DNA of 64,000 bases from assembly GCF_002080435.1 (NCBI RefSeq), contig NZ_CP020538.1, positions 1,488,001 to 1,552,000 of the forward strand, in the 5' to 3' direction. Of this stretch, positions 1 through 13,635 are shown piece by piece. Origin of the DNA: Sphingobium herbicidovorans. Its GTDB lineage: Bacteria > Pseudomonadota > Alphaproteobacteria > Sphingomonadales > Sphingomonadaceae. A program made the translations under genes and the position numbers. The notes under the pieces are model-generated. The model saw only the letters and a list, made by a program, of their open reading frames with translations. It made no database searches and was not told the DNA's origin. How positions within the stretch are numbered: position 1 is the stretch's first letter; every line of letters starts with the position of its first letter.

Positions 1-1
1 G

Positions 2-244
2 CGTCGCCTGCGCGGCAAGCTCGATTATTCCGGGATCGCCTTCGCGCTCCTGCCCGAGCGTTTCACGTTGCGCGCCTTGCAGGACATCTACGAAGCCATC
101 CTTGACACCAAGTTCAACAAGCCCGCCTTTCGCCGCCGCATGCTGGATCGCGGCTGGCTGGAAGCGACAGGCGAGCGCGAGACCGGCGCGTCGTTCCGTC
201 CAGCCGAACTCTATCGATACCGTCAAGCAGAAGGGGAACAATGA
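2..244 (+). CDS. NrtR-like NUDIX-related transcriptional regulator, C-terminal part
   Basis: An open frame enters the window and stops at a TGA at 242-244. The 80 visible residues resemble the C-terminal winged-helix part of NrtR-type regulators: LPERFTLRALQDIYEAIL, then FNKPAFRRRMLDRGWLE, then a Phe-Arg-Pro-x-Glu-Leu-Tyr ending. NrtR proteins join a NUDIX-like ADP-ribose sensor domain to this DNA-binding part and repress NAD-salvage genes. The stop codon overlaps the start of the next gene (ATGA), so it is co-transcribed with the SPFH, NAD-kinase-like and pncB genes, which fits that role. The NUDIX part lies outside the window, so the identification rests on the C-terminus and the neighbours. 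Confidence 0.7.
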   Translation, partial: RRLRGKLDYSGIAFALLPERFTLRALQDIYEAILDTKFNKPAFRRRMLDRGWLEATGERETGASFRPAELYRYRQAEGEQ

Positions 245-1227
245 TGGCCCACGTCCGCAATTTCAGTTTCGCCGCGCAGCTGCGCGCCGACGCAAGCAGC
301 CATGTCATCCGATATCGCAAGGGCCGGGTGCGGCAGAGCGGGCGGGGTCTCGTCTTCTGGTTCCGCCCGGAGACCGCCAGCATTGCCGAGCTGCCGATGG
401 ACGACCGCGAGATGGCGCTCTTCGTTAAGGGGCGCAGCCAGGACTTCCAGACCGTGGCGGTGCAGGGCACGCTGACGTGGCGCGTTGCCGATCCCGAGCT
501 GCTCGCGGCGCGCGTGGATTTCACGATAGGCCTGCGCAGTGGTAGCTGGACCGCTGAGCCCATTCAGCGCATTGAGACGCGTCTTGCCGGCCTGGTCAAT
601 CAGGCGGTGCTGCAATATCTCGCACAGGCACCAGTGCAGGCGCTGCTCGATAGGGGGCCGGACCCCTTGCGCGGCGCGCTGCAGGCGGCGCTAGCGCACG
701 ATCCGGCGCTGGGCGAGATCGGTCTCGAAGTCGTCGCGATCCGGCTCACCAACCTCGCGCCCAGCGCCGAACTGGAACGCGCGCTCCAGACGCCCACCTT
801 CGAGGCGCTCCAGCAAAAGGCGGATCAGGCGACGTTCGAACGTCGGGCGCTCGCCGTCGAGAAAGAGCGTGCCATCGCCGAGAACGAGCTCGCCAATCGG
901 ACCGAACTCGCTCGCCGCGAGCAGCAGCTGATCGCGGAGGAAGCCGCAAACGCCCGCACGCGCGCGGCGGGCCTCGCCGAGGCGCAGCAGGTCGAAGCGG
1001 CGGCCGAGGCGGAGCGTATTCGCACCGTGGAGGGCGCCAAGGCAGAGGCCGAGCAGGCGCATATCGCAATCTACCGCGATCTGCCGCCCGCCGTCCTCCT
1101 GGGGCTCGCGGCGCGCGATCTGGCGGGCAAGCTGGATACGATCGAGCATCTGAACGTCACGCCCGATCTGCTATCCAGTCTCCTCGGCGAGTTCCGCCGC
1201 GAAGCGTCTGCGCTTCCGGCCCGGTGA
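241..1227 (+). CDS. SPFH/band-7 domain protein
   Basis: This is a protein of 328 residues. Residues about 20-180 read as an SPFH/prohibitin-like beta-rich domain (LTWRVADPELLAARVDF, then an amphipathic IETRLAGLVNQAV helix). Residues about 185-270 are rich in Glu, Ala and Arg and should form a coiled coil, as in flotillin and prohibitin families. There is no clear N-terminal membrane anchor, so it may be soluble or peripheral. The start is one of two adjacent ATGs (241 or 244), and the first overlaps the upstream TGA. SPFH genes are known to sit inside NAD-salvage operons, but their job there is not established. The function is therefore inferred only as a scaffold or oligomer. Confidence 0.75.
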   Translation: MMAHVRNFSFAAQLRADASSHVIRYRKGRVRQSGRGLVFWFRPETASIAELPMDDREMALFVKGRSQDFQTVAVQGTLTWRVADPELLAARVDFTIGLRSGSWTAEPIQRIETRLAGLVNQAVLQYLAQAPVQALLDRGPDPLRGALQAALAHDPALGEIGLEVVAIRLTNLAPSAELERALQTPTFEALQQKADQATFERRALAVEKERAIAENELANRTELARREQQLIAEEAANARTRAAGLAEAQQVEAAAEAERIRTVEGAKAEAEQAHIAIYRDLPPAVLLGLAARDLAGKLDTIEHLNVTPDLLSSLLGEFRREASALPAR

Positions 1228-1234
1228 GGGCGCG

Positions 1235-2128
1235 ATGCCGACCAACAGCCCTCGCGCGGTATTCGTCACTCGGGAGAGCAACTATGAGCTATTGCTCGCG
1301 CGTCATGCGACGCGCGAGCAGGCACGGTTCTTTCTCGAAACGCGCGGCCAGCGGATTGAGACGCTGGAGGATCGCGACTGCCAGCTGCACGATGCGCTGA
1401 AACAGGCGCGGCTGGCGGTGCCGGACGACTGGCGGCAGGCACATGTGCGCCGACCCGACCTCGATCGGTTCCTGTTCGGTCCGGAGGACGTGATTGTGCC
1501 GGTCGGCCAGGACGGGCTGGTCGCCAACGTCGCCAAATATCTCGCCAGCCAACCCGTGCTGGGAGTGAATCCGTCGCCCGATCTCTACGACGGCATCCTC
1601 GTCCGCGTGCCCGTGCGACGGCTCGCCGATCTGCTTCGCGCAGCCGCAGCAGAACAGGCGCCGATCGAGTACCGCACGATGGTCGAAGCCCGGCTTGACA
1701 CCGGAGAGCGCCTGCTTGCGCTCAACGAAGTGTTCGTCGGCCATCGCAGCCACCAGTCCGCGCGTTTCAGCATCGTGGTCAGCAGCGGCCGGGAGGACCA
1801 TAGCTCCAGCGGCCTCATTGTGGCGTCGGGAACCGGCGCCACGGGCTGGGCCCGTTCGATCATGGAATCGATGGGGACGCACGTGCCGCTGACGCCCGAG
1901 GAGCGCGCCGTCGCCTATTTCGTCCGCGAGGCCTTTCCAAGCATTGCAACCGGCACGAGCATACGTGCGGGCAAACTCGCCCACGAGCCGATCGAGGTTA
2001 CCTCGCGGATGAACGATGGCGGCGTGATCTTCGCGGACGGCATGGAGCAGGACTTTCTGGTGTTCGATTGGGGTCGCCGCGTATTTGTGGCACCCGCTGC
2101 CCACGCCCTTCACCTCGTCACCGGCTGA
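1235..2128 (+). CDS. NAD-kinase-like (sugar kinase/DAGK superfamily) protein
   Basis: This protein of 297 residues has the landmarks of the NAD kinase fold. [16 protein letters not shown] stands where classical NadK has [21 protein letters not shown] carries the conserved Asn-Glu. [17 protein letters not shown] matches the glycine-rich GTGSTA loop, and FADGMEQDF follows. The first motif is VGQDG rather than GGDG, so it is a divergent branch and activity on NAD is not proven. It begins 7 bases after the SPFH stop and sits between SPFH and pncB, consistent with conversion of NAD to NADP or another role in NAD homeostasis. Confidence 0.7.
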
Positions 2129-2138
2129 GGATCGACCA

Positions 2139-3443
2139 ATGCCCGTCACTGACATCGCAACGCGCGTCTATAACCATGGTTGGCGGCTCGATCCGGTCGT
2201 CCGAAGCCTGCTCGACACCGACTTCTACAAGCTGCTGATGCTGCAGATGATCCGGCATCTGCATCCGGACGTGCAGGCGACCTTCTCGCTGATCAATCGC
2301 AGCAAGTCGCTGCGATTGGCGGACGTGATCGACGAGACGGAGCTGCGCGAGCAGCTTGACCATGCGCGCACGGTCCGCTTCTCCAAGAAGGAGCTGATCT
2401 GGCTTGCTGGCAACAGCTTCTACGGCAAGCAGCGCATGTTCGCGCCGGACTTCATCGAATGGCTCGCCGATTTCCAGCTGCCCGACTACGAGCTGCGCAC
2501 GATCGACGGTCAGTTCGAACTGCAGTTCGAGGGGCCGTGGACGCATACGACGATGTGGGAGATTCCGGCGCTCGCCATCGTCAACGAGCTGCGTTCGCGT
2601 GCCGGGCTCAAGGGCAAGGGCCGCTTCGAGCTCGACGTGCTCTATGCTCGCGCCAAGGCTAAGCTCTGGGAAAAGGTCGAACGGCTGCGCCAGCTTCCTG
2701 ACCTAGTGATTTCAGACTTCGGCACCCGCCGCCGCCACAGCTTCCTCTGGCAACGCTGGTGCGTCGAAGCACTCAAGGAGGGTTTGGGCACGCGCTTCAT
2801 CGGCAGCTCTAATGTGCTGCTCGCAATGGACAACGACCTCGAGGCAATCGGCACCAACGCGCACGAGTTGCCGATGGTGCTGGCCGCTCTCGCCGAGGAC
2901 GATGCCGGTGTGGCAGCCGCGCCCTATCTGGTGCTGGGGGAATGGCGGGCGCACTATGACGGGAACCTGCTGATCGCGCTCCCGGACGCCTTCGGCACCA
3001 CTGCCTTTCTGCGCGACGCCCCCGATTGGCTCGCCGACTGGACCGGCTTCCGTCCCGACTCCATGCCCCCGATCGAGGGCGGCGAGCAGATCATTGCCTG
3101 GTGGGAGGCGCATGGCCGCGACCCTCGCACCAAGCTGCTGATCTTCTCCGATGGGATGGATGTCGACAGCATCGAAGCGGCGTATCGTCACTTCCATGGT
3201 CGGGTACGGATGAGCTTCGGCTGGGGCACCAACCTCACCAACGACTTTCGAGGCTGCGATCCCGACGGCGGGCACGAGCTGGAGCCGATCTCGCTCGTTG
3301 CCAAGGTGACCAGCGCCAACGGGCGTCATGCCGTGAAGCTCTCTGACAATCCTTCCAAGGCGACCGGCGATCCTGCCGAAATCGAGCGATACCTGAGGAT
3401 TTTCGGGCAAGATGGTCGAGTGCAGCAGGTCGTCGCAGTTTAA
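2139..3443 (+). CDS. pncB: Nicotinate phosphoribosyltransferase
   Basis: This enzyme of 434 residues condenses nicotinate with PRPP to give nicotinate mononucleotide, the entry step of the Preiss-Handler NAD salvage route. Family landmarks are [15 protein letters not shown] at the N-terminus, the active-site segment [14 protein letters not shown] (the His is the phosphorylation site in the family), [10 protein letters not shown], and [16 protein letters not shown] followed by [11 protein letters not shown]. An upstream in-frame ATG at 2085 lies inside the kinase gene. The ATG at 2139, 10 bases after that gene's stop, fits the conserved N-terminus better. It is the last gene of the operon. Confidence 0.93.
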
Positions 3444-3847
3444 TCAGCCGCTGACCGACGCGCCTAAGTTATTTTAGTTCGACCTGCCGCGTGAGGTGGG
3501 TCCGACAATCGTCTGCGATGAGTCTCTTAGCGGCGGTGGGTGCCGGCTTCGGTGGATAGGCGCCGCTGGGTTGGAGGATGAACGAATGGCGGCTTGTAGG
3601 AGCGTCGGCGGATCGCCGGAAGGACCGCTATGTTGGCGGCCCTAGCCGTTTATGGCTCACGCTGATGACCTCCCGCCCAGGAGGCGCTGTTCAGCACGGC
3701 CTTTGCCGCTTCCATAAGCTGATATTTGTTTACCAAGACCACCTGGGGCGCTCGGAAGGTCCGAGGGCCGCATCCGGATGGATTCCTGCAACTCTATCTC
3801 CCATACCGCTTTGTTCGCGCTGGCGCGCCGCCGGCAGATTGGCCATC
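3444..3847. other. Intergenic stretch, nothing recognised
   Basis: About 400 bases between pncB and the HEPN gene. The plus-strand frame of the HEPN gene stays open back to an ATG at 3578, but that extension shows no conserved or ordered protein character. I see no clear terminator, tRNA or IS end. It probably holds the promoter of the HEPN gene. Confidence 0.4.
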
Positions 3848-4522
3848 ATGGTGGTCATGACCACGTGGACAGACTTCGAACGTAGCATTGCTGCTGCCCG
3901 TCAACTCACCGCCATGTACGCTGAACTAAGACGGGCCCGCGGACTGGGGGCTCGCGGGCGGCTTAATGCTGACAATCAGGACCTACTATGGATGCCGCGA
4001 TCGGCGGTGGTGGCTGCGATCTCCGCTATGGACGCGTACATCCATTCTGTCCTTGACGAACGCATTCCTATCGCGCTCGCGCAACCGATTATTCCTGAGG
4101 CGCTTGCGGCGGCTATGGCGGACTTGTTGCCGATCAAGAACGCCGCCAGCTTTAGGCAGGCATTCCCGATTCTCACTGCCTCGAACACCGCTACGGCATT
4201 AAGCGCACGATTGAGAGATCGGAGCCTACAGTTCCTGTCCTATCAGGCCCCCGACAAGATCATCGCAGCCTACAGTCTCATCGGACTAGAAGGAATTTTC
4301 GATGAGGTCGCCAACTTCTGGCCAGGGCCCGGGACCACCGCGCAGGAGATCAAGAACCGGTTGGCGAACTATGTAAAGCGCCGCAACCAAATCGCCCATG
4401 AGGGCGACTACGAAGTTGGCGGCGCTGTGCGTCAGATGCAACCCAAGTATGCCAACGACTGCGCGGACTTCATACACAACCTGACAAGTCGTTTCGATCG
4501 CGCCGTCTACGGCGAGCGCTAA
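3848..4522 (+). CDS. HEPN-domain-like protein (possible RNase or defence-associated)
   Basis: This is an all-helical protein of 224 residues, or 221 if the second in-frame ATG at 3857 is used. The C-terminal third holds the HEPN signature Arg-Asn-x3-His (RNQIAHEGDY, about residues 179-188, R179 and H184), which is the RNase active site in many HEPN toxins and CRISPR-associated nucleases. The middle part (SAVVAAISAMDAYIHSVLDE) resembles the first HEPN helix, where an Asp often sits. The gene stands alone, with no nucleotidyltransferase or other antitoxin next to it. The longer frame from 3578 is unlikely to be translated. It may be a defence or toxin gene, but the exact target is unknown. Confidence 0.55.
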   Translation: MVVMTTWTDFERSIAAARQLTAMYAELRRARGLGARGRLNADNQDLLWMPRSAVVAAISAMDAYIHSVLDERIPIALAQPIIPEALAAAMADLLPIKNAASFRQAFPILTASNTATALSARLRDRSLQFLSYQAPDKIIAAYSLIGLEGIFDEVANFWPGPGTTAQEIKNRLANYVKRRNQIAHEGDYEVGGAVRQMQPKYANDCADFIHNLTSRFDRAVYGER

Positions 4523-5022
4523 GCGACGAGGCGGAACAGCTTGCCTGTACTCGTCTCCACTTGACCGCAACAGCGGGAAGTAGAGAACGCTGAATAAACT
4601 GCGGATGGCGGTTCTCTTGGCCAATTACCGTCTTTGGCCAGACATAAACGAAAGGCGGATTTCGACAACCTCATCTGAACAAGCGATTGGCCTCTGTGGA
4701 TGACGAAACCGCCGGCGCTGGCGGCCTTAGGCCCCGCAGACACAACTAGGGCTGCCGGACCAACTACGTACACGATCAACATTATGTCCATCTGGGCCGC
4801 CTTCCCCTAGATTCACAACATCCATGATCATTTCCAAGGGCGCAGAGCTTTCGAGACAAGGCTGAATGCCCTCGAGCACGCCGCAGTACGATCACGCATG
4901 CCACTTCCGGGGTATGGCGCTTGCGATGGCCTCGCCAATGAGGAGCATGAGCGTTCAAATAATTTCAATCGCCCATATTCATGCCCCTTGAAATGTAATG
5001 CCTCTGTTTCCATTTCCAGATT
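4523..5022. other. Intergenic stretch, nothing recognised
   Basis: About 500 bases between the HEPN gene and the DGQHR-motif gene. Several short open frames exist on both strands, but none has a plausible ribosome binding site or recognisable motif. No repeat or IS end was seen. Confidence 0.35.
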
Positions 5023-6048
5023 ATGCAGCCACCGCTCTCCCTCGAGCAGAATTTCAGCGAGGCGTTCGCCTCGACCAGCACAGCGCTGGTGGTGGCCTGG
5101 CGCTATCTCGGGCGGTTACCCGCGAGTGAACCCAAGTTCCGCTCGCAACGAGAGGGCAGGATCGACTGGCGTGCTTTCGCCGAATGGACTGCGCCCGACC
5201 GGGACCGGAGCGCCTTCGTTGCAGCGCATGAGATCACGCACCTGCTGCTCGATCACCTGGACGAGGCGAGGCGCAGCCCGACGAAATTCTGGAATACGGT
5301 CGGCAGCTTCGCGACGGGGGCCAAGATCCTTCCGCATATCGATTGCGAAGGTCAGATCCTCCTCGATATCGATAACGGGCTGTATCTTCCCGCCAATCTC
5401 AATCGCCTGTTCGATCTGCCGATCGTCGATGGCCAGCATCGCATGGTCGCGGTGCAGAACTTCATGTCGGCAAAGAAGCGCGATGCGCTGATCGATGCTT
5501 TTGTCGCCCGGATTTTGAGCAATCCGTTCCGGCGCGACGCTGGCTTCGACGATGTAGAGGCTGACCTTGCCGATCTCGCGCAGCATGTCGTGGCGCAGGT
5601 TCGCGAGCATTCGCGTGTGCGGCTGGTGTTCAGCTTTCCGCCGCCGTCGGGGGCACAGTCCTCGACCCGCGACATGGTCCTGAGCTTCGCGCTCTGGACC
5701 GGTTGTCCTCCGCCCGAGGGCGATGCCGTCGCCGCGCATTTCGCGCTGCCCGCATCGTTCAGGGTTGGAGTCAATTCACATGGTTTCGCGTATTTCGGAC
5801 CTTCGGGTCGAACAGGCCCGGCGGCATGGCTGCATCGTCGGCCTGCCCAAGGATTTCGCCGAGGAAGTGGCGGCGCTCGCCGACTTCCTCATGGACTGCC
5901 ACATCTGGTCGGACGTGACCTTGCTGTTCGACGGCGAGGTCGTGGCCCATCGCCCGGGCCGCTGGCGGGTGCCGGTCGAGGACGGATGGTGGCTGATGTT
6001 CGGCTGGACGCCGCCGTTCGGCCCGGTCGAGTTGCAATTGTGGCATGA
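5023..6048 (+). CDS. Unknown protein with HEITH and DGQHR motifs
   Basis: The frame encodes 341 residues, but only residues 1-252 are unshared, because from 5780 it overlaps a better-supported toxin gene in another frame. Two motifs stand out: AAHEITHLLLDH (H69, E70, H73), a HExxH pattern as in zinc peptidases, and IVDGQHR (residues 134-140), the hallmark of DGQHR proteins related to DndB. The second Zn-ligand motif of ImmA/IrrE peptidases is not evident. The last 90 residues are Arg/Gly/Pro-rich and look like off-frame translation, so the true end may be near 5780 with a frameshift. There is no clear Shine-Dalgarno before 5023. Function unknown; the neighbourhood suggests defence or stress. 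Confidence 0.5.
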   Translation: MQPPLSLEQNFSEAFASTSTALVVAWRYLGRLPASEPKFRSQREGRIDWRAFAEWTAPDRDRSAFVAAHEITHLLLDHLDEARRSPTKFWNTVGSFATGAKILPHIDCEGQILLDIDNGLYLPANLNRLFDLPIVDGQHRMVAVQNFMSAKKRDALIDAFVARILSNPFRRDAGFDDVEADLADLAQHVVAQVREHSRVRLVFSFPPPSGAQSSTRDMVLSFALWTGCPPPEGDAVAAHFALPASFRVGVNSHGFAYFGPSGRTGPAAWLHRRPAQGFRRGSGGARRLPHGLPHLVGRDLAVRRRGRGPSPGPLAGAGRGRMVADVRLDAAVRPGRVAIVA

Positions 6049-6061
6049 GGGCGATGGCTGA
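5780..6061 (+). CDS. HigB/RelE-like toxin
   Basis: This is a small protein of 93 residues. Its C-terminal half (GRWRVPVEDGWWLMFGW, then VELQLWHE) has the pattern of HigB-type RelE/ParE toxins, in which a Trp-rich strand pair ends in an Asp-Tyr-His tail. The identification is supported mainly by the next gene, a HigA-type antitoxin that overlaps it by 8 bases, which is the normal toxin-first order of hig operons. GGAG lies about 11 bases before the ATG. Its first 269 bases overlap the tail of the DGQHR-motif frame. Toxicity and ribosome dependence are inferred from the family. Confidence 0.6.
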   Translation: MVSRISDLRVEQARRHGCIVGLPKDFAEEVAALADFLMDCHIWSDVTLLFDGEVVAHRPGRWRVPVEDGWWLMFGWTPPFGPVELQLWHEGDG

Positions 6062-6386
6062 GACACGAGATTTCCCCCCGCAGCTGCCGGGCGTATTCCT
6101 GCGCGACCGGGTGCTGCGCAAGCCCGGCGCCAAGATCACGCAGGAGGCGCTGGCCGACGCGCTCGATGTGTCGCGCTTCACCGTGAACCAGATCATCAAC
6201 GGCCACCGCGCGATCACCGCCGACATGGCGGTGCGCCTGGCCCATGTGCTCGGTACGTCGGCCGATCTGTGGCTCGACATGCAGAAGCGCGTCGATCTGT
6301 TCGAGGCGCACAGGAAGCTCGCGGCGGAAAGCCCGAAGCTCACCGTCTTGCGGGAAGCCGAGGCCGGGCCGCCGGCGAGCGACTGA
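6054..6386 (+). CDS. higA: HigA-family antitoxin (XRE-type HTH)
   Basis: This protein of 110 residues has a helix-turn-helix at residues about 25-75: ITQEALADALDVSRFTVNQI, then NGHRAITADMAVRLAHVLGTSADLWLDMQ. The ending LGTSADLWLDMQ is highly typical of HigA/VapI antitoxins. It neutralises the upstream toxin and represses the operon. The ATG at 6054 overlaps the toxin stop at 6059-6061; an alternative ATG at 6045 adds three residues. The last 25 residues are polar and probably disordered. Confidence 0.88.
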   Translation: MAETRDFPPQLPGVFLRDRVLRKPGAKITQEALADALDVSRFTVNQIINGHRAITADMAVRLAHVLGTSADLWLDMQKRVDLFEAHRKLAAESPKLTVLREAEAGPPASD

Positions 6387-6649
6387 CGTGCCCGGTAGCG
6401 ACCGGCCCAAGCCGCGGAGCCTAGACGGCCGGGTCAGCCACTGATCGCCGTCCAAGGCGATGAGCAGCAGTCGCACACAACCTCAAGCCGAAGTAGACGT
6501 CGCCGCAAAGAGCTACGCATATTCCGTAGTTTCTCGAACTCGCCTCCATTATGAATAGAATTGTGCGGCGCTCAACCTAGCCAAGACTTGCGGGAATCAT
6601 CATAAGGTGAGAGCCTGATCACTTCAGCGTTGCTTTGGGGGAGTAAGCG

Positions 6650-8014
6650 ATGCGGAGTTTGGCCTTAGTTGTTGGTGCGGGTGCCCTCATTCTGGGCTCA
6701 GCCGCCATTCTGCGTGGACCGCTGGGAGATGCAGCGGCACAACCGGCCTCCGATCCGGCTGCGGAAGCGAAATTCCTCGAATATACGCGGTATCCGGTTC
6801 CGGCCGGGGAGACCGGAAAATTCCAGCTCAACGTCGATTTCCCGAAGACGCGCCCTGCCGCGCGCGCCATGCCCTGGGATGCGATCGACTTCCGGCAGCA
6901 GCCCGAAGCCTATCTGCGCAGCGTGCTCGACTATTGCTTGGCGGATGCCGAGGGCCGCGACTTTCAGTTCGGGGGCAGCACGAAATGGTATCATGCACCC
7001 TGGCTGGCGCGCGAGCCGATCCGCGGCCTGACCAACGAACGCGGCTCGGTCGTGGGCGAACTGGCAGTCGGGCATGGCGGTGCGAGCAATGTCGCAGTCG
7101 GCTATTACAACGACCTCGGTGCCTGGGCCTTTTCGAAGGTCTGGGCGAACCGGGGCAATCCACAACCCGCTGCCGTCGATTTTCCGGTCGGATCGGTCTC
7201 GTGCAAATTGTTGTTCACCGATGCCGACCCCGCACAGGTGACCTATCTCAAGGGCTCGCTCGAATGGCGCGCCGCGCCGCGCGGGACCGCCAAGACCGTG
7301 CGGCTGCTGCAACTCGACGTCGGTGTGCGTGATGCGCGGGCCAATGCGATGACCGGCTGGCTGTTCGGGACGTTCATGTATCTCGGCGATCCGCAAGCGC
7401 CGCGCCCATTCGCCTTCAAGAATCTGACGCCGGTCGGGCTGATGTGGGGCAATGATCCGGACCTCGGACCGATCAAGGTGAAGACCGGTGCCAAGCCCGT
7501 CGAGGGCTGGATGAATCCGGTGGTCGTCGAACATTATCGCGCGATCCGGTCGCAGACGCCGGGCCTCGGCACCGATCTCGGCCTGTTCGGCCGCGTCAAC
7601 GGGCCGGTCGACAATCCGCGCTCGGGCTGCCTCGCATGCCATGGCCGCGCGCTCGATGGCGGTCCAGACTGGACCTCGGCCGAGCGAAGCCGCCAGCTTC
7701 CATTTGTGCCACCCAACTTCAACGCGGCGAACCCGACGGCGCAGGAAGATTCGGCGGTGCGGCGTTTCTTTCGTAATCTCAAGCCCAATGAGCCGTTCCT
7801 CGCTGGCAAGCAGTCGCTCGACTATTCGCTGCAGCTCGCGGTCGGCCTCGAAAATTATCACGCCTGGCGCCAGCAAGCGCGCGTGATGCTGGCGCCGCAG
7901 CGCGCCTCCGACTTCAAGGCGGTGCGCGAGCGCAACTGGATCGACGTCGTTCCCGATGCCGAGGAGCCCAAACGTGGCGATGCGCCTGCCGAAGCTCGCG
8001 AACGGCGCAGATAG
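6650..8014 (+). CDS. Exported monohaem c-type cytochrome-like protein
   Basis: This protein of 454 residues starts with a hydrophobic segment and a likely signal peptide (residues 1-30, ending in AAAQP). One haem c attachment site, CLACH (C327, C330, H331), lies in the C-terminal third. The rest is rich in Trp, Tyr and Pro (KWYHAPWLAREPIRGL, GYYNDLGAWAFSKVW) and matches no family I can name. A strong Shine-Dalgarno (GGGGGAG) precedes the ATG. The next two genes follow within 9 and 18 bases and are probably co-transcribed. It is likely periplasmic and acts in electron transfer or redox sensing, but no substrate can be deduced. Confidence 0.6.
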   Translation: MRSLALVVGAGALILGSAAILRGPLGDAAAQPASDPAAEAKFLEYTRYPVPAGETGKFQLNVDFPKTRPAARAMPWDAIDFRQQPEAYLRSVLDYCLADAEGRDFQFGGSTKWYHAPWLAREPIRGLTNERGSVVGELAVGHGGASNVAVGYYNDLGAWAFSKVWANRGNPQPAAVDFPVGSVSCKLLFTDADPAQVTYLKGSLEWRAAPRGTAKTVRLLQLDVGVRDARANAMTGWLFGTFMYLGDPQAPRPFAFKNLTPVGLMWGNDPDLGPIKVKTGAKPVEGWMNPVVVEHYRAIRSQTPGLGTDLGLFGRVNGPVDNPRSGCLACHGRALDGGPDWTSAERSRQLPFVPPNFNAANPTAQEDSAVRRFFRNLKPNEPFLAGKQSLDYSLQLAVGLENYHAWRQQARVMLAPQRASDFKAVRERNWIDVVPDAEEPKRGDAPAEARERRR

Positions 8015-8023
8015 GAAAGCGAC

Positions 8024-8698
8024 ATGCCGACGACTGCCGACAGCTCTGCACCGGTGACATCCGCGCTCGCCGCGATGCTGCATCCTGGCGATGAAGGAGC
8101 GTTCCATGCCGCGATCGCCCCGGCCGCCGATCCCCGGCAGGCGGTCGAGGCATGGATCAATGCGGGGCTCCCCCAGGGTGCTCCGGCGTTGCAGGTCCGC
8201 TCGCTCGAACTCCATCTCGTGCGCGCGTTTAACACCGCTGATCTCGGCTCCGGTCCCGAGACCGTCGTGGTCGGTGAACCTGAATTTCTCTATGTCGCCG
8301 ATGTCGGGCTGGCGGCACGGGCGGGCTTGCTGCTCGCCTGGGCGAACGGCATCGGTGCGGGAGTTCCGACCTTCCCCGAATTTGCCAACGCGAAGCTGCG
8401 CACGATCGTAGACACGCAGCCGCGCAACCTCATCTTTCCGCTGATCGCCGGCGAGTGGATCGGCAGCATCCGGGCCGGCACTGATCCGCAAGCAGCCAAG
8501 GCGGCGATCGAAGGGCTTGCCGCGTACGACGTGACGATCAGCGGCACCTTCGTCGAGGGCAAGTGTCACCCGTTCATGGAAGCCGAGATTTGCGCCCAGC
8601 TCGAGGCGGGTCTCGATTTCCTTCGCTATGCCGAGCCGAACCGCGTGGTGCGGCTCGTCGATTTCAGTCCGGGCTGGGACGCCCGGCGACTTTGCTGA
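8024..8698 (+). CDS. Conserved-looking protein of unknown function
   Basis: This is a protein of 224 residues that I do not recognise. It starts 9 bases after the cytochrome stop. It has no signal peptide or membrane span, and its helices are separated by Pro and Gly. There is one Cys near residue 183 in VEGKCHPFMEAEICAQLEAG and another there at the end of that segment. Codon use and G/C-rich third positions match the neighbours, supporting a real gene. It is probably a partner of the haem protein upstream. Confidence 0.5.
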   Translation: MPTTADSSAPVTSALAAMLHPGDEGAFHAAIAPAADPRQAVEAWINAGLPQGAPALQVRSLELHLVRAFNTADLGSGPETVVVGEPEFLYVADVGLAARAGLLLAWANGIGAGVPTFPEFANAKLRTIVDTQPRNLIFPLIAGEWIGSIRAGTDPQAAKAAIEGLAAYDVTISGTFVEGKCHPFMEAEICAQLEAGLDFLRYAEPNRVVRLVDFSPGWDARRLC

Positions 8699-8716
8699 CG
8701 AGCAGGGAGACGGAAG

Positions 8717-8947
8717 ATGGCGCCAGCATGTTTTGAAGGAACCGGTACCACGATCGAAGAGGCGCTCGATGCCGCCCACATGCAGATCCCGATCCCCGTG
8801 GGGAGCGACATCACGGTATCGCGCGTAGTGGACTGGGGCATGCAATATGGCGGGTTCATTCCGCAGCGGACCTTCTGGGTGATCGTCGAGGAAGACCCGA
8901 ACGGAACTCATCCTCTGAACGCCGGCGCCGAGCCGGCCGGCGACTGA
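8717..8947 (+). CDS. Small protein of unknown function
   Basis: This protein of 76 residues starts 18 bases after the previous gene, preceded by GGAGACGGAAG. The opening (FEGTGTTIEEALDAAH) slightly recalls dodecin-like proteins, but the rest does not fit convincingly. It is the last gene of the cytochrome unit. Its stop at 8945-8947 directly abuts the stop of the convergent gene at 8948. Confidence 0.45.
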   Translation: MAPACFEGTGTTIEEALDAAHMQIPIPVGSDITVSRVVDWGMQYGGFIPQRTFWVIVEEDPNGTHPLNAGAEPAGD

Positions 8948-10378
8948 TCACGTGTCCGGCATCTCACGCGCCGCGCGTCGGCGCGCGAGATCCTCGAACC
9001 AGGCGGGCAAGGTCTCATAGGTCGGCATGGGGTCGTCGGCTGCCATGATCAGCGAGCGCGACCAGAGAATGCCGGTGTCATAGTAGTGGCGGCAGTCCAT
9101 CGCGCCATCGACCTCCAGCCAGTGGCTGGCCTCGGGGAGCAGTTCGGTCGGCAATGGATGGCGCGCGAACGGGTTGTGAAAGACTTCCAGTTCGGCGCAC
9201 CAGGGTTCCCAACCCTGCGGCCAGAGCGTGCGGTACTCGTCGGAAAGTACATCAAGACAGAAGGGAATGCCTTCAAGCGCGCCAGGATTGCGATCGTAGA
9301 AGCGCCCATATCGTACATAGCGGCCGACATGGGACTGCATGCCGCGGCTCAGCGCGACGCGGTTGAATTTGCTGAGCGCGCAGGCATTGGTGAAGATAAC
9401 CGCTGACAGCTCGGCATGGACATCATCGCGAAACAACCCCGCCGGAAATTCCGAGGGACCGAGCAGTCGCTCGACCTCATAGCCGGCGGCAACGCGCTTA
9501 CCATCGATCTCGATCGCTTCCGCGCCGAAGCCATAGAGATAGCCGAGCAGGGCTTCACGGCTCCAGACCATCGATCCCGGGGCATGGAAATCGGCGAGTG
9601 CGATCGCAAAGGGGTGCCCTGCGACATGGTCCATCTCGGCGTAGCGACGCTGCAGCTTGCTGCCGATGGTCTTGGCGAAGCGCAGGGCGGCCGTTCCGAA
9701 AAACAGTTCTTCATTCTCCTCGGGCTGGATCGATGGCATGGCACCGACCGGTTCGAAACGCTCCTGCGGATTGGCGGTGACCGCCTCGACCCAGGCGGTG
9801 CCGCCCTTGCGATTCTCGATGCGGAAGTCCGGGAATTCCATGGGCTGCGTCACCAGCAGGCCCTGCTCGCGGAACGAGGCAAGGAGCTGTGCCTCCCAGA
9901 GCCGGGTATGGAAATTCCCGGTCTGGCAGTCGGCGGCCCAGTTGCGATCGGGGCGCGGTAGCGAAAGATAGAGCTGGTTGAGCAGCCAGGCGACATTGCG
10001 ATGGCTCTTCGCCGTCAGCATCTTGAAAATCTCGCTCGGCTCGCGCCCTTCGACATCGTACAGCGCTGTTCGCCGCTGGATGCCGGATGGCACTTGTTCG
10101 GGCGGCTCACCCTCGCGCAGCTCGACACGCGCGCGATCGCGCGCCGTGTCGATATCGGCAAGACCCAGCAGGTCACAGGTCCTCGCCCAGACACCGTCGG
10201 TCCGACGCCGCATGACGATCAGTCCGAGATCGCCATGATCGGCGTGACGCGTGATGATGGCCAGGGCCTTGCCGTCGTCGGCTTCCCAAGCCTCGTGCGG
10301 GATGCGATCACCAAAACCATGGCCGTGCGGCAGTGCGAGTGCGTAGATGTCGAACCTGCCGAGCGGAACCTCGATCAT
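8948..10378 (-). CDS. PD-(D/E)XK-nuclease-like protein paired with a TIR-like gene
   Basis: This protein of 476 residues starts at the ATG at 10376-10378, six bases after the stop of the TIR-like gene; a longer open frame to 10672 is off-frame overlap with that gene. Residues 160-200 carry a pattern seen in PD-(D/E)XK folds: a Glu in a helix (LWEAQLLASF, E162), then Pro-Asp (FPDFRIENR, D184), then a strand with Trp-Val-Glu-Ala-Val (E198). The usual Lys is replaced, so catalysis is not certain. The rest matches no family I know. The tight pairing with a TIR-like protein points to a two-component unit, probably anti-phage defence; this is inference. Confidence 0.5.
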   Translation of the reverse strand: MIEVPLGRFDIYALALPHGHGFGDRIPHEAWEADDGKALAIITRHADHGDLGLIVMRRRTDGVWARTCDLLGLADIDTARDRARVELREGEPPEQVPSGIQRRTALYDVEGREPSEIFKMLTAKSHRNVAWLLNQLYLSLPRPDRNWAADCQTGNFHTRLWEAQLLASFREQGLLVTQPMEFPDFRIENRKGGTAWVEAVTANPQERFEPVGAMPSIQPEENEELFFGTAALRFAKTIGSKLQRRYAEMDHVAGHPFAIALADFHAPGSMVWSREALLGYLYGFGAEAIEIDGKRVAAGYEVERLLGPSEFPAGLFRDDVHAELSAVIFTNACALSKFNRVALSRGMQSHVGRYVRYGRFYDRNPGALEGIPFCLDVLSDEYRTLWPQGWEPWCAELEVFHNPFARHPLPTELLPEASHWLEVDGAMDCRHYYDTGILWSRSLIMAADDPMPTYETLPAWFEDLARRRAAREMPDT

Positions 10379-10383
10379 GTCGC

Positions 10384-12099
10384 TCAGCGTGCCGCGGCGT
10401 CGTCGGTGCCGGCATAGCCATCCCAGATGTCGCGACCAAAGGACGGCGAACCATCGCCCCAGCCCGAGGTTTGCCAAAGAATATCGAAGGCCTCGTTCAG
10501 CTGATTGCCGGGTTGCGCGAGGGGGTCCGCCAGTTCGACGACGGGGAGCAAGAAGCCAGGCCGCCGGATCAGGCGACCGCCGCCCCGGGCGCGGGTCAGC
10601 TCGACATCCTCGACGCCGTCGAAGCCGATCGCCAGCAGCGCCGGGCCGCCAAGCCCCACTTCTGCCAGGCACACCGCCAGTCGCTCGACCCCCGCGACGA
10701 TGCGGCCTTCGAGGTCGCGGCCATCGACCAGGATGCGGGGATCATCATCGATCCGCGATCCGATTGTCGCCTCGAACTCGATCGCGCCCGGCCGCACGAG
10801 GCGGGTCCGCCAGCGAGATTCAACATTGGGCTTGCCGACATTGCGCGGCACGTCGGCACTCCACCACTGATCGCCATCGGCATCGGTCGCGACACGCGCA
10901 TGGACATCGGGCGCGAACTGCAGCTGCGCCTTGGCGACTTGCGCTGGCACAAGACGCGGGCGTTCGGCAATGATCGCCGGCACCAGCCGGATCTTCACGC
11001 TCGGCTTGCTGACGATGCCGGGCACGCGGCCGGTCACCTCGTCATTGCCGAGCCGTTCGAGCAGCGCCTTCGCCGCTTCCCATGGATCGGCGGCGGCAGC
11101 GGGTGGCGCCGCGACCACCCCGGCGGCAACCCGCACCCGATCTCGCGCGACACGCTCGAAGGCGTCGAGCGCGCCGGCGAAGGCGGTCGCCGCCTTGTTC
11201 ATCTCGTCCACCGCGCGAACGGTCGATGGTTGGGTGCCACGGCGACGATCCTCGTCGGTCTTGGGCGAGCAGAGCGCGATATTGGCGTCGAGCACGAAGA
11301 GATATTGGCCGGTAAGATTGCCGAGCGCCTCCGCCCGCGCGCGCACCTCGGCCCAGGCGGCCTGCAGCGCGCGATCGTGGAACTCGAACCGCGCGCCGCG
11401 CCAGTCCTCGTTCATCTCGTAAAGCGGGTTCAGGATATCGCGACGGAACGGCTCGCCGAAATTGTGGTCGTGGAAGAAACGCTGGAGCCTGACCGGAAAC
11501 TGATCACGGACCTTGCCGAGCAGGTCGACATCGAGCGGATGCGGTTCGGCCGGTGCTGCCGCTGGCGCGGCGACCACCGCATCATTTAAGATCGCCCGCA
11601 GCGCGTCGCGAAGGCCAAGGGCCAGACCGACACGCGCAGCGCGCCGTTCCGCCTCATCGGCATCGTCAGGGCAGTTGTATAGGATTGGCCGCCGAAAATG
11701 CTGCAGGTCGAACGGCAGCGGATGGTCCTCGGGCGAACCATGGGCGATGTTCATCACCGAGATGATCCGCCGCCAGCTGAGCGCGCGCAGCGCCCAGCCA
11801 TGTTCGAGCAGGACATTAGGGTTGGGCATGAGACGGCCATCGGACCGGGTCGCGACATAGGTCAGGTCGGAGAGGAAGGCGGTGGCGGCATCGACCTTGG
11901 CAAAGATCGTCTCGACCAGCGGCGGCGAGCCGGGCACGCCGCTGGTATCGCGGTCGATCGCCAGTTCGCGGTGCGCCGGATCGATCTCGGCGTCGGCTTT
12001 GATCGCCGCAATTGCGTCGCCGAGCGCGCGCTCGATCAGATTTCGCCCGGTCAAGGGCAATCGGTCGATCTGCCAGGAGAAGAATATGTGCTGCGTCAT
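10384..12099 (-). CDS. TIR-like (CAP12/PCTIR-type) N-terminal domain protein
   Basis: This protein of 571 residues has an N-terminal domain (about 1-150) that follows the TIR-like pattern common in bacterial defence islands: IFFSWQ at the start, then AIDRDTSGVPGSP (residues 47-59), IFAKVDAATAFLSDLT (65-80), and PNPNVLLEHGWAL (92-104). Glu99 is the likely catalytic residue of NAD-hydrolysing TIRs. The rest (about 180-571) is an unrecognised large domain with an Ala/Pro linker near 185 and mixed alpha/beta character at the end. An AGGA lies upstream of the ATG at 12099. It is followed after 5 bases by the nuclease-like gene. TIR-like effectors typically deplete NAD or bind nucleotide signals on infection; here that is inference. 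Confidence 0.65.
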   Translation of the reverse strand: MTQHIFFSWQIDRLPLTGRNLIERALGDAIAAIKADAEIDPAHRELAIDRDTSGVPGSPPLVETIFAKVDAATAFLSDLTYVATRSDGRLMPNPNVLLEHGWALRALSWRRIISVMNIAHGSPEDHPLPFDLQHFRRPILYNCPDDADEAERRAARVGLALGLRDALRAILNDAVVAAPAAAPAEPHPLDVDLLGKVRDQFPVRLQRFFHDHNFGEPFRRDILNPLYEMNEDWRGARFEFHDRALQAAWAEVRARAEALGNLTGQYLFVLDANIALCSPKTDEDRRRGTQPSTVRAVDEMNKAATAFAGALDAFERVARDRVRVAAGVVAAPPAAAADPWEAAKALLERLGNDEVTGRVPGIVSKPSVKIRLVPAIIAERPRLVPAQVAKAQLQFAPDVHARVATDADGDQWWSADVPRNVGKPNVESRWRTRLVRPGAIEFEATIGSRIDDDPRILVDGRDLEGRIVAGVERLAVCLAEVGLGGPALLAIGFDGVEDVELTRARGGGRLIRRPGFLLPVVELADPLAQPGNQLNEAFDILWQTSGWGDGSPSFGRDIWDGYAGTDDAAAR

Positions 12100-12882
12100 G
12101 CCTGCGCGATCCTAATCGCAACAGGGAGCCGCTTCTAGCAAAGACCGATCAAGAGGCGGGCGGCGATAAGGGCTCCCGCTGATCGCCCAGCGGCTCGATG
12201 CCTCGTCGCCAACTATCGCTTCCACTGTCGGGCGGTAAAGCACACATACGCCACGGTCACGATCGTCGCTTCCAGTATCGCTGCCCGGTTCGCGCCGATT
12301 TCCAAACAATCGTTATCCCTCGTGGCCCCTCGGCCTTTGCCAGCTGGCGATTACTTATCCGGACGCCTAGCTGAACCTATGGCAGCTTTCGAGGAGGTGC
12401 TCCAGCATGCCGCATGTCTGCGAGTCGGCGGCAATTTCCATCCGGTAGCATTAGCAGAAGCCGACCAACCTTGGTCATTGCCACCGCACGGATAAATGTC
12501 CGGTCATGCGGAAAGCCGTCAATCGTACCTGTCGAAGCCGACGATCGGCAGAGCGCCAAATCCGAGCCGTGTTACGATTTGGTGGAGCTTATAGGACTGA
12601 CAGCAGCGGCTGCGACATATTGAGGCGGCGGCTGGCGGATTTCCGCAATCACGCCGAACACCTCGGTGATCGAGAAGTTCGGCTTGATCTGCGTGACCTT
12701 GCCAATCCGATGGCGAAGTCCGCGCCGGTGACGCAGACTGTCAACCAACCGGAACTGCAGCCGAGCGGAATATCATAAGGCTGTCAAAAGCGCCTTGATT
12801 GTGGGGGGGCTAGCAACACTACAACACCTCTTCCACGTGGCTGCCAGAAGTGTAAACGCGGTCACTTACGCCGATCAGCTGA
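12100..12882. other. Long stretch without recognisable genes
   Basis: About 780 bases between the TIR-like gene (transcribed leftward from 12099) and the stop of the NTF2-like gene. Short open frames occur (for example plus strand 12506-12778), but none has recognisable motifs, and their composition looks random or decayed. It should contain the promoter of the TIR-like unit near 12100-12250. No IS ends were identified. Confidence 0.4.
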
Positions 12883-13635
12883 CTACCGCTGTCTTTGCCC
12901 GCTTTTCCTATTTTGATTATTGATCACCTCCATCCCCATGGAGAGGGCGGGTGGCACGGGCAGGTTGGCAGCCTTTAGTTCGGCGACCAAGCCCTCCATA
13001 TAGTTACTGTATCCACCCTGCTTGATCCAACTCTCCTGAACAGCATTGTTGGAAACAGGTTCGATCCACTTGGTTTTGCGCCCCAGCTCATCAAAATAAT
13101 GGATGTCAGTGACCCAGGTATGGGGCTTGCTGCCGTCCTTCATCGTACCTTCATACTTGGTAGCACTGATCACCACATTTTCATCTCCCGTGATGTGGTA
13201 ATCCGTGATCCGCCAGTCAGGCGTACCGCGCCAGAACACCTTCGCCTCTACGAGACCGAATTTTACTCCTTCCGCGGGGTCGCCGTGCTGCACCGGCATC
13301 GGGCCTGACCCGGCAAGGTCCAAGGTGGCGTTCGGCGCCCATGCCGATAGCTTTTCGTCCCCGGGCAGAGGAGCAGGGAAGCTGTGGGTCTTGTAGGCCA
13401 CACGATAGCCTTCAATGCCTTGGCGCGCCATGTAGAGGTTGCGTGCGCGGCGTTCCTCCTTGGTGAGGCCGGGCGTGCCGACCGGGTAGAGCGGCACGCC
13501 GTCAACGACGCGGACGGGCGCGGCGTGCGAGGCAGCGGAAGTCGCCTGCTTCTCAGCTGCAAGCGCAACGGTGGGCAGCAGCAAGGCGAAGGCAGTCAAA
13601 CTCGACAACGGCATCAGGCGAGGTGAAGAGTACAT
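12883..13635 (-). CDS. Secreted SnoaL/NTF2-like protein
   Basis: This protein of 250 residues has a clear signal peptide (residues 1-27, hydrophobic core LTAFALLLPTVALA, cleavage after ALA). The C-terminal half has NTF2/SnoaL-like strand character (KVFWRGTPDWRITDYHITG, then THWVTDIHYFD-like strands and KWIEPVSNN). Such folds bind or isomerise small molecules. It follows the TonB receptor gene, with AGGAAGGA before the ATG and overlap of the ribosome site with the receptor's end, so the two are co-expressed. It is probably periplasmic and may act on the imported ligand. The family call is tentative. Confidence 0.6.
   Translation of the reverse strand: MYSSPRLMPLSSLTAFALLLPTVALAAEKQATSAASHAAPVRVVDGVPLYPVGTPGLTKEERRARNLYMARQGIEGYRVAYKTHSFPAPLPGDEKLSAWAPNATLDLAGSGPMPVQHGDPAEGVKFGLVEAKVFWRGTPDWRITDYHITGDENVVISATKYEGTMKDGSKPHTWVTDIHYFDELGRKTKWIEPVSNNAVQESWIKQGGYSNYMEGLVAELKAANLPVPPALSMGMEVINNQNRKSGQRQR

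Follow-up and report, generated by a model that had tools for sequence, protein, structure and literature searches.

A TIR-like gene and a PD-T7-1 family gene as a candidate two-gene phage-defence cassette in Sphingobium herbicidovorans

In a 64,000-nucleotide stretch of the Sphingobium herbicidovorans genome (contig NZ_CP020538.1, positions 1,488,001 to 1,552,000; hereafter the window), two genes, here called A and B, follow each other on the minus strand with 5 bases between them. A encodes a protein of 571 amino acids with a predicted TIR fold at its N-terminus, while B encodes a 476-residue member of the PD-T7-1 family of defence proteins. The two genes form a unit that recurs between unrelated flanks, and relatives of A elsewhere adjoin other partners. 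We put at about even the chance that the pair is a transferable phage-defence cassette, in which A would be an exchangeable TIR effector or sensor and B a PD-T7-1-type nuclease. Both reading frames and their spacing are as given in the original prediction, which was made from the DNA letters and did not state the strand. Long open reading frames also overlap the stretch on the plus strand (e.g., 10333-11589) but are most likely shadows, since A and B have protein-level homologues with low ratios of nonsynonymous to synonymous substitution (dN/dS).

Conservation and transfer of the A-B block

A scan of 84,980 species with patterns taken from the alignment of A returned 27 loci. After removal of three partial ones (L103, L104 and L106), 24 loci with full-length A remained, a number which is a lower bound because the scan needs exact short patterns. 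It includes L097, although A is interrupted there by a stop in its 5' part, and L093, where the neighbouring 540-residue gene is cut by the contig end. Genes in the relatives were predicted with a simple caller, which found no matching gene in L036, L038, L039, L040, L060, L066, L069, L071 and L072. A is rare, and its loci were found almost only in Alphaproteobacteria.

Besides the window, A is followed by B in three of the 24 loci: Novosphingobium pokkalii (L080; 88 % identity to the window for A and 93 % for B, gap of 5 bases), Sphingomonas aurantiaca (L081; 89 % for both proteins, 5 bases) and a metagenome-assembled genome (MAG) of Novosphingobium (L082; 62 % and 72 %, 11 bases). Order and strand are thus kept in all four loci, with gaps of 5 to 11 bases. 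When positions 1-40000 of the window were compared with these loci by blastn, the only matches at E <= 1e-5 were the block itself: window positions 8956-12122 with L080 at 88 %, 8994-12122 with L081 at 87 % and 9015-12099 with L082 at 69 %. Because the shared DNA ends at A and B, the two-gene block, with, in the two loci closest to the window, some 23 bases upstream of A, is judged from these alignments to move as a cassette. Towards the three other loci dN/dS (NG86) is 0.12-0.22 for A and 0.09-0.21 for B, values which indicate that purifying selection acts on both genes. The two genes had been proposed to be a conserved unit, and the block common to the three loci as well as the selection on it agree with this.

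On the phylogenetic tree of A the rows partnered by B form one group, found in 78 % of the bootstrap trees. On the tree of B the A-paired proteins likewise group together (94/92), next to a lone B of plasmid L001 (100/99). The flanking genes were also considered as members of the unit and rejected. In the genus sample of 41 genomes the gene at 6650-8014 occurs once, in the window's own genome, and that at 12883-13635 twice; neither is common to L080-L082.

The immediate surroundings of the block offer two further observations. In L081 (9719-11938), the reading frame of B continues into a tail that resembles ParB (match to a PHROG ParB-like partition protein); insertion of the cassette into a partition gene is perhaps its origin. 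Upstream of A, a scan for promoters found none in the window. L080 and L081 carry here a 19-base palindrome, RTAGTCGCG-T-CGCGACTAY, which ends 12 bases before the start codon and is possibly an operator, to judge by its symmetry; the outermost bases pair as A/T in L080 and as G/C in L081, and the window has a weak GCGAT/ATCGC pair only.

B is a PD-T7-1 family protein

B matches the PADLOC model of PD-T7-1 over nearly its full length (E 3e-66, 222 bits; residues 4-428 of 476 aligned to model positions 4-431 of 452). It also matches PD-T7-5 (E 2.1e-31) and PHROG family 8571 (E 1.8e-49), whereas Pfam gave a chance match only (E 0.74) and NCBIfam none. By this homology B belongs to the PD-T7-1 family. 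The PADLOC match rules out B as an unnamed protein, and the claim that most of it matches nothing nameable has to be dropped.

PD-T7-1 is described as found by functional selection in Escherichia coli; it protects the host from T7 and, to a greater degree, from T-even phages (PMC9519451). When overexpressed in E. coli K-12, it was reported to protect against a Teseptimavirus and to shrink the plaques of T7; the headings on the native strain of that study name restriction-modification and PD-T4-3 as responsible, and not PD-T7-1 (PMC12409345). A review places both PD-T7-1 and PD-T7-5 among the PD(D/E)XK nucleases (PMC10952713).

The predicted model of B is of good quality (predicted local distance difference test score, pLDDT, 88.2; predicted template modelling score, pTM, 0.89). 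Within the putative nuclease core, the predicted order of elements is helix 156-171, strands 175-177, 185-188 and 194-202, helix 229-242 and strand 257-263, i.e., helix-strand-strand-strand-helix-strand. The first helix carries E162 and the third strand E198, and the PD184 pair precedes the second strand. PD-(D/E)XK enzymes have residues and secondary structure arranged in this way. E162 is kept in all 26 rows that cover it (one of 27 is gapped), and D184, E198 and K241 in 27 of 27. The residues E162, P183-D184 and WVE198 named in the original prediction are therefore present and conserved beyond chance, and the PD-(D/E)XK-like order claimed for them is supported by the residues together with the predicted secondary structure.

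A carries a TIR-like domain and two further domains

The model of A (pLDDT 81.5, pTM 0.45) shows three domains whose mutual placement is unsure: alpha/beta (residues 1-175), helical (188-321) and again alpha/beta (339-563). In a Foldseek search of the PDB, ranks 1 to 8 are all TIR-STING chains (7un8, 9lmq and 9lmr; best E 4.5e-5, probability 1.00), while plant TIR domains, flavodoxin-like folds and a nucleoside deoxyribosyltransferase appear at E values of about 0.006 to 0.08. Among viral models, the best match is annotated as a CAP12/Pycsar TIR (E 1e-8). The Foldseek output comes without the matched residues, and we place the match on the N-terminus of A from its motifs and from a weak match to Pfam PF10137 (CAP12-PCTIR TIR) at residues 62-116. 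Since the TIR-STING alignments, with 213-220 columns, exceed the length of a TIR domain, a partial STING match may extend into the rear part of the model.

The motifs FFSWQ, DRDTSGVPGSP and PNPNVLLEHG with E99 are found as described. Glu99, within N-x-N-V-x-x-E, is conserved in all 36 rows that cover it (four of 40 are gapped), which is beyond chance. The best structural matches thus point to a TIR fold, in the wider sense, at the N-terminus of A, and the predicted fold bears out the TIR-like assignment. Could this domain instead be a nucleoside deoxyribosyltransferase-like or a purely structural member of the same fold group, and no NADase? Nucleoside deoxyribosyltransferases do occur at lower ranks of the lists (8pqt_B in the PDB list, E 0.02, root-mean-square deviation (rmsd) 3.6 Å; A0A6J5MSR9 in the viral list), three relatives of A have weak matches to Pfam Nuc_deoxyrib_tr, and A does not reach the Pfam TIR cut-off. 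However, the eight best PDB matches are TIR-STING and the best viral one is the CAP12/Pycsar TIR, so that we regard this alternative as very improbable.

For the middle and C-terminal domains no named family was found in Pfam, NCBIfam or PADLOC, and none of the 50 Foldseek rows for A could be assigned to either. That some 380 rear residues of A lack a named relative was already part of the original prediction and holds for these three collections. For A as a whole, neither PADLOC nor NCBIfam gave a match at E <= 1, and it is not a member of a named defence family there. Nor does it appear to be borne by phages: 90 stretches of viral contigs matched the patterns and none encodes a relative, in a scan that reaches close relatives only. 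Queried by sequence, the PDB returned no relative for A, B or the TIR rows, the two weak matches having E values of 0.1 and 0.69.

Exchange of partners

The partner of A is B in 3 of the 24 full-length loci, a protein of 540 residues (B2) in 15, and HEPN-AbiU2 with Abi_C or HNH in 3; the last 3 (L098, L099 and L105) have no clear partner beside A. The 15 B2 loci are not 15 independent events, because L085-L087 are alike, as are L092-L094. In the two copies of B2 scanned there was no PADLOC match and no Pfam match better than E 0.3. Its C-terminus matches an unnamed PHROG family best (E 2e-21), followed by one annotated as HNH endonuclease (E 1.3e-12), and contains an almost invariant stretch, IDIHVPEL...IEYQGQQHY (10 rows), whose pattern suggests a PD-(D/E)XK-like site. 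B and B2 were not found to be homologues (hhalign probability 1.4 %, with a shallow B2 profile of effective sequence number (Neff) 1.2).

The A-B2 pair, too, appears as a block. It is near a MobF relaxase on the annotated plasmids L003, L004 and L079, but all the DNA that L100 (Glycocaulis) has in common with L083 and with L003 is A plus B2. L090, L096 and L101 have a HEPN_AbiU2 gene downstream of A (family scan on L090, of which the other two copies are 87-88 % identical) and, upstream, Abi_C (L090 and L096) or HNH_5 (L101). The block common to L090 and L096 stops at the HEPN_AbiU2 stop codon, its other edge being a contig end. In L098, a gene weakly like restriction endonucleases lies 384 bases downstream (below the Pfam cut-offs; PADLOC PDC-M36A, E 4.3e-7).

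On the tree of A, the B2-partnered rows form one clade (100/100). Since B rows and B2 rows group separately, the partners of A are, on this phylogeny, stable within lineages and different between them. The original prediction took genomes with the two genes unlinked as evidence against it, and such genomes do exist beside the four A-B loci, which contradicts it in part; with another partner at 18 of the 24 A loci, an unclear one at 3 and no full-length A in 13 of the 15 B-bearing genomes of the order sample, A-B is, as far as gene order tells, one lineage of a modular set and not a universal two-gene system.

Three of these loci deserve a separate remark. L096 (4957-10429) has HNH_5, a 265-residue protein, Abi_C, A and HEPN_AbiU2 in a row, while in L101 (6786-10429) HNH_5 is followed by A without the two intervening genes. 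The contig L086 is assigned to a Microbacterium MAG, but its A-B2 stretch resembles that of the Sphingobium records L085 and L087, and it is probably mis-binned.

Domains of A in other arrangements

The rear part of A is itself modular. TIR proteins of about 400 residues related to the N-terminus exist without it, and the middle domain also occurs as two small separate proteins of 200 and 215 residues. The C-terminal domain directly follows the TIR domain, without the middle one, in L035 and L074. In L077 it stands behind an N-terminus annotated as HNH endonuclease (HNH_2, 20.8 bits against a cut-off of 21), and in L076 behind a weakly DUF4062-like one (16.2 bits against 24.7). Such an arrangement, behind TIR, HNH-like and weakly DUF4062-like N-termini, would suit a shared sensing or docking part attached to alternative effectors. 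Scans with this domain matched 1 of 349 genomes in the phylum sample, the window's own, and 5 of 347 in the family sample (G1164, G1256 and the weak match G1251 among them).

In L043 (2830-8399), the middle domain is a small gene directly after a 1640-residue type ISP restriction-modification enzyme. L074, plasmid pB of Sinorhizobium chiapasense, encodes the TIR plus C-terminal-domain protein 107 bases before Shedu SduA. Its positions 1-13197 are a dense defence island with, in addition, HEPN/Toprim, 7-cyano-7-deazaguanine synthase-like, PIN and ABC-three-component genes.

B without A

Among 396 genomes of the order, B (E <= 1e-5) is found in 15, fragments and weak matches included, and full-length A in 6; both are present in 2, the window's own being one, and they are adjacent in both. 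No close co-directional neighbour of B was seen in L001, L061, L062, L133 and L135. In other loci B comes closely after a Hjc-like nuclease (L002), 27 bases after an amidohydrolase (L134) or closely after a 702-residue protein with a sub-threshold NERD match (L063). Phage mEp460 carries a lone PD-T7-1 relative.

On plasmid Rts1 (L129, 3895-6365), 23 bases separate the PD-T7-1 relative from a preceding pPIWI-associating nuclease (pP_pnuc_1/2; Pfam pP_pnuc_1 E 9.5e-35, PADLOC Aga_Nuclease E 2.8e-59). No gene named Argonaute is among the ten features examined there. From this gene order, the PD-T7-1 protein of Rts1, too, seems to occupy the place of a partner.

B might thus be an ordinary stand-alone PD-T7-1 and A a separate solo defence gene that came to adjoin it in a hot spot, and both the 13 of 15 B-bearing genomes without full-length A and the 400-residue TIR relatives without the rear of A would be in line with this. 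Chance co-occurrence, however, predicts 6 x 15 / 396 = 0.2 genomes, as against the 2 observed, both with adjacent genes. Moreover, order and nearly the same spacing are found in four loci with unrelated flanks, and the pairing persists down to 62 % (A) and 72 % (B) identity. Two separate genes are therefore an improbable explanation.

Mode of action and alternatives

In the cassette as we picture it, B would probably attack phage nucleic acid through its PD-(D/E)XK core. The middle and C-terminal domains of A would probably sense infection or the state of the partner nuclease, and the TIR domain, once released, would consume NAD+ (or make a nucleotide product) and stop the infected cell. A and B would thereby co-operate, and in related cassettes a homologue of A would act with other nuclease-like or HEPN/Abi genes.

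For A we favour a role as effector or guard over one in signalling, because B and B2 share no detectable signal-binding domain and the relatives of B stand alone. Signalling would work as in Thoeris, a signalling system with a TIR protein: triggered by infection, the TIR domain of A would produce a nucleotide signal, and this would activate the nuclease B. TIR proteins of the fold class of A do sit in signalling systems (by fold, the TIR-STING of CBASS), and the partner of A is often nuclease-like. However, with no homology detected between B and B2 at the profile depth given above, a common signal-binding domain is not seen, and where B occurs without A, as in 13 of 15 genomes, it needs no signal from A. 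We consider signalling of this kind rather unlikely.

Somewhat better placed, although still tentative, is a form of the cassette reading that overlaps with it, in which the partner gives direct immunity and A, silenced by contact with it, kills the cell only if a phage disables the partner, much as PrrC guards EcoprrI. The partners differ and several are nuclease-like, HEPN or Abi genes, the cassettes are co-mobilised, and the grouping of A by partner, with 78 % of bootstrap trees for the rows beside B and 100 % for those beside B2, is what fitted pairs would give. Against it, L099 has no nuclease-like gene beside A, the neighbour in L105 is without any match, and the one candidate in L073, some 320 bases upstream, is a relative of the protein with the sub-threshold NERD match. 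A guard and an independent sensor both fit these data. More specifically, A could be a portable TIR guard that docks via its C-terminal domain on unrelated partner nucleases and kills through depletion of NAD+ once that partner is blocked or triggered by a phage. The partners would be PD-T7-1, the 540-residue protein, Shedu (for the shorter form of A) and the HNH/HEPN/Abi_C sets; we hold this version to be possible but clearly less likely than not.

Several points weigh against the cassette reading itself. Just three outside loci carry A-B, and the sequence available upstream of the block is 324 bases in L080 and about 8 kilobases in L081 and L082. The A-B grouping on the tree of A is moderately supported (72/98). 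The closest pair among the window, L080 and L081 differs between the genes, being L080-L081 for A and window-L080 for B according to synonymous divergence (dS) and the trees, so that the two may recombine apart inside the cassette. A may add little, because B stands without full-length A in 13 of the 15 B-bearing genomes of the order. As to B, the usual lysine after its second acidic residue is V in 17 and T in 10 of the 27 rows; the invariant Lys241 of the second helix may substitute for it. Foldseek found no solved structure for the model of B at E <= 0.001 (best 0.17), and the nuclease fold consequently rests on the residues and the predicted secondary structure. As to A, the TIR-STING matches reach whole-model TM-scores of 0.18-0.22, with an rmsd of 12-14 Å over their 213-220 columns; further down the ranking come flavodoxin-like folds and a nucleoside deoxyribosyltransferase, and PF10137 scores 15 bits, below its cut-off of 24.7; the top score among the relatives scanned, 21.9 bits, is below it as well.

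Relation to known systems

B resembles PD-T7-1 in its nearly full-length match, its length class and the kept putative catalytic residues. PD-T7-1 is a single gene, as its name without component letters suggests. The relative in phage mEp460 stands alone, whereas B is here the second gene of a TIR-headed cassette. Because A adjoins it in all four loci of this lineage and shares its cassette, we file only the protein B as PD-T7-1. A is closest to the TIR-STING of CBASS and the PycTIR of Pycsar by its best fold match and the conserved Glu in N-x-N-V-x-x-E, but differs in staying below the PF10137 cut-off, in having no PADLOC match and in that no named sensor domain is recognised; no cyclase family was found among the window neighbours scanned.

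A two-gene unit headed by a TIR protein recalls Thoeris (ThsB TIR and ThsA), an analogy of layout. B is nevertheless not ThsA, since it matches PD-T7-1 and no SIR2, SLOG or Macro family, and the PADLOC Thoeris models match neither A nor B. Short prokaryotic Argonaute systems (pAgo) gave no match among the 8 window proteins scanned. The Shedu locus L074 is alike in that domains of A, the TIR one at 41 % and the C-terminal one at 34 % identity, precede a nuclease gene (SduA, E 2.6e-121). It differs in lacking the middle domain, in having Shedu and not PD-T7-1 as partner, in the spacing of 107 bases and in being one locus only.

What was known, then, is the family of B and, as an arrangement, the TIR protein in a multi-gene defence unit. 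The family of A, its two unnamed domains and the partner exchange are new in that Pfam, NCBIfam, PADLOC, PHROG and the literature searched do not hold them. No paper was found that pairs a TIR protein with PD-T7-1 in its title or the start of its abstract, subscription papers being mostly beyond that search; three papers (PMC10952713, PMC10270631 and PMC11291487) do contain both terms. To our knowledge the trigger of PD-T7-1 is not known, and a lineage locked to a TIR protein offers a handle on what PD-T7-1 senses. A-B points to TIR effectors as interchangeable modules that can be joined to nuclease defences; if A does guard its partners, one exchangeable effector would turn many direct-immunity nucleases into two-layer systems. 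The C-terminal domain, common behind TIR and other N-termini, is a concrete new domain for structure work.

Table 1. Features of the A-B block, in window coordinates
Feature	Position	Strand	Description and evidence
Cassette	8956..12122	-	sole DNA common to the window and L080; slightly shorter in L081 and L082
Gene A	10384..12099	-	571 amino acids, TIR-like protein with two further domains; translation, homologues, model
A, TIR-like domain (residues 1-175)	11575..12099	-	E99 in PNPNVLLEHG; Foldseek, conservation, weak PF10137
A, middle helical domain (residues 186-325)	11125..11544	-	no named family; helices 188-321 in the model
A, C-terminal alpha/beta domain (residues 339-563)	10411..11085	-	no named family; model
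Gene B	8948..10378	-	476 amino acids, PD-T7-1 family, probable PD-(D/E)XK nuclease
B, putative nuclease core (residues 147-263)	9590..9940	-	E162 helix, PD184, E198 strand, K241 helix
23 bases upstream of A	12100..12122	-	end of the conserved block

Neighbouring genes

The neighbourhood had been described as defence-like, on account of HEPN, HigBA-like and DGQHR-motif genes. This stands for HigA, which is solid (TIGR02607, 82.9 against 47.7 bits), but the other members are weak or without a family match: the HEPN-like neighbour scores 26.0 bits, below the Pfam cut-off of 28.4, the HigB-like open reading frame has no Pfam match at E <= 0.01, and the DGQHR one matches DndB at E 0.058 only. At 5023-6386 of the window, the DGQHR-motif open reading frame, whose second half looks out of frame, overlaps the short HigB-like one in another frame and is followed by the clear HigA.

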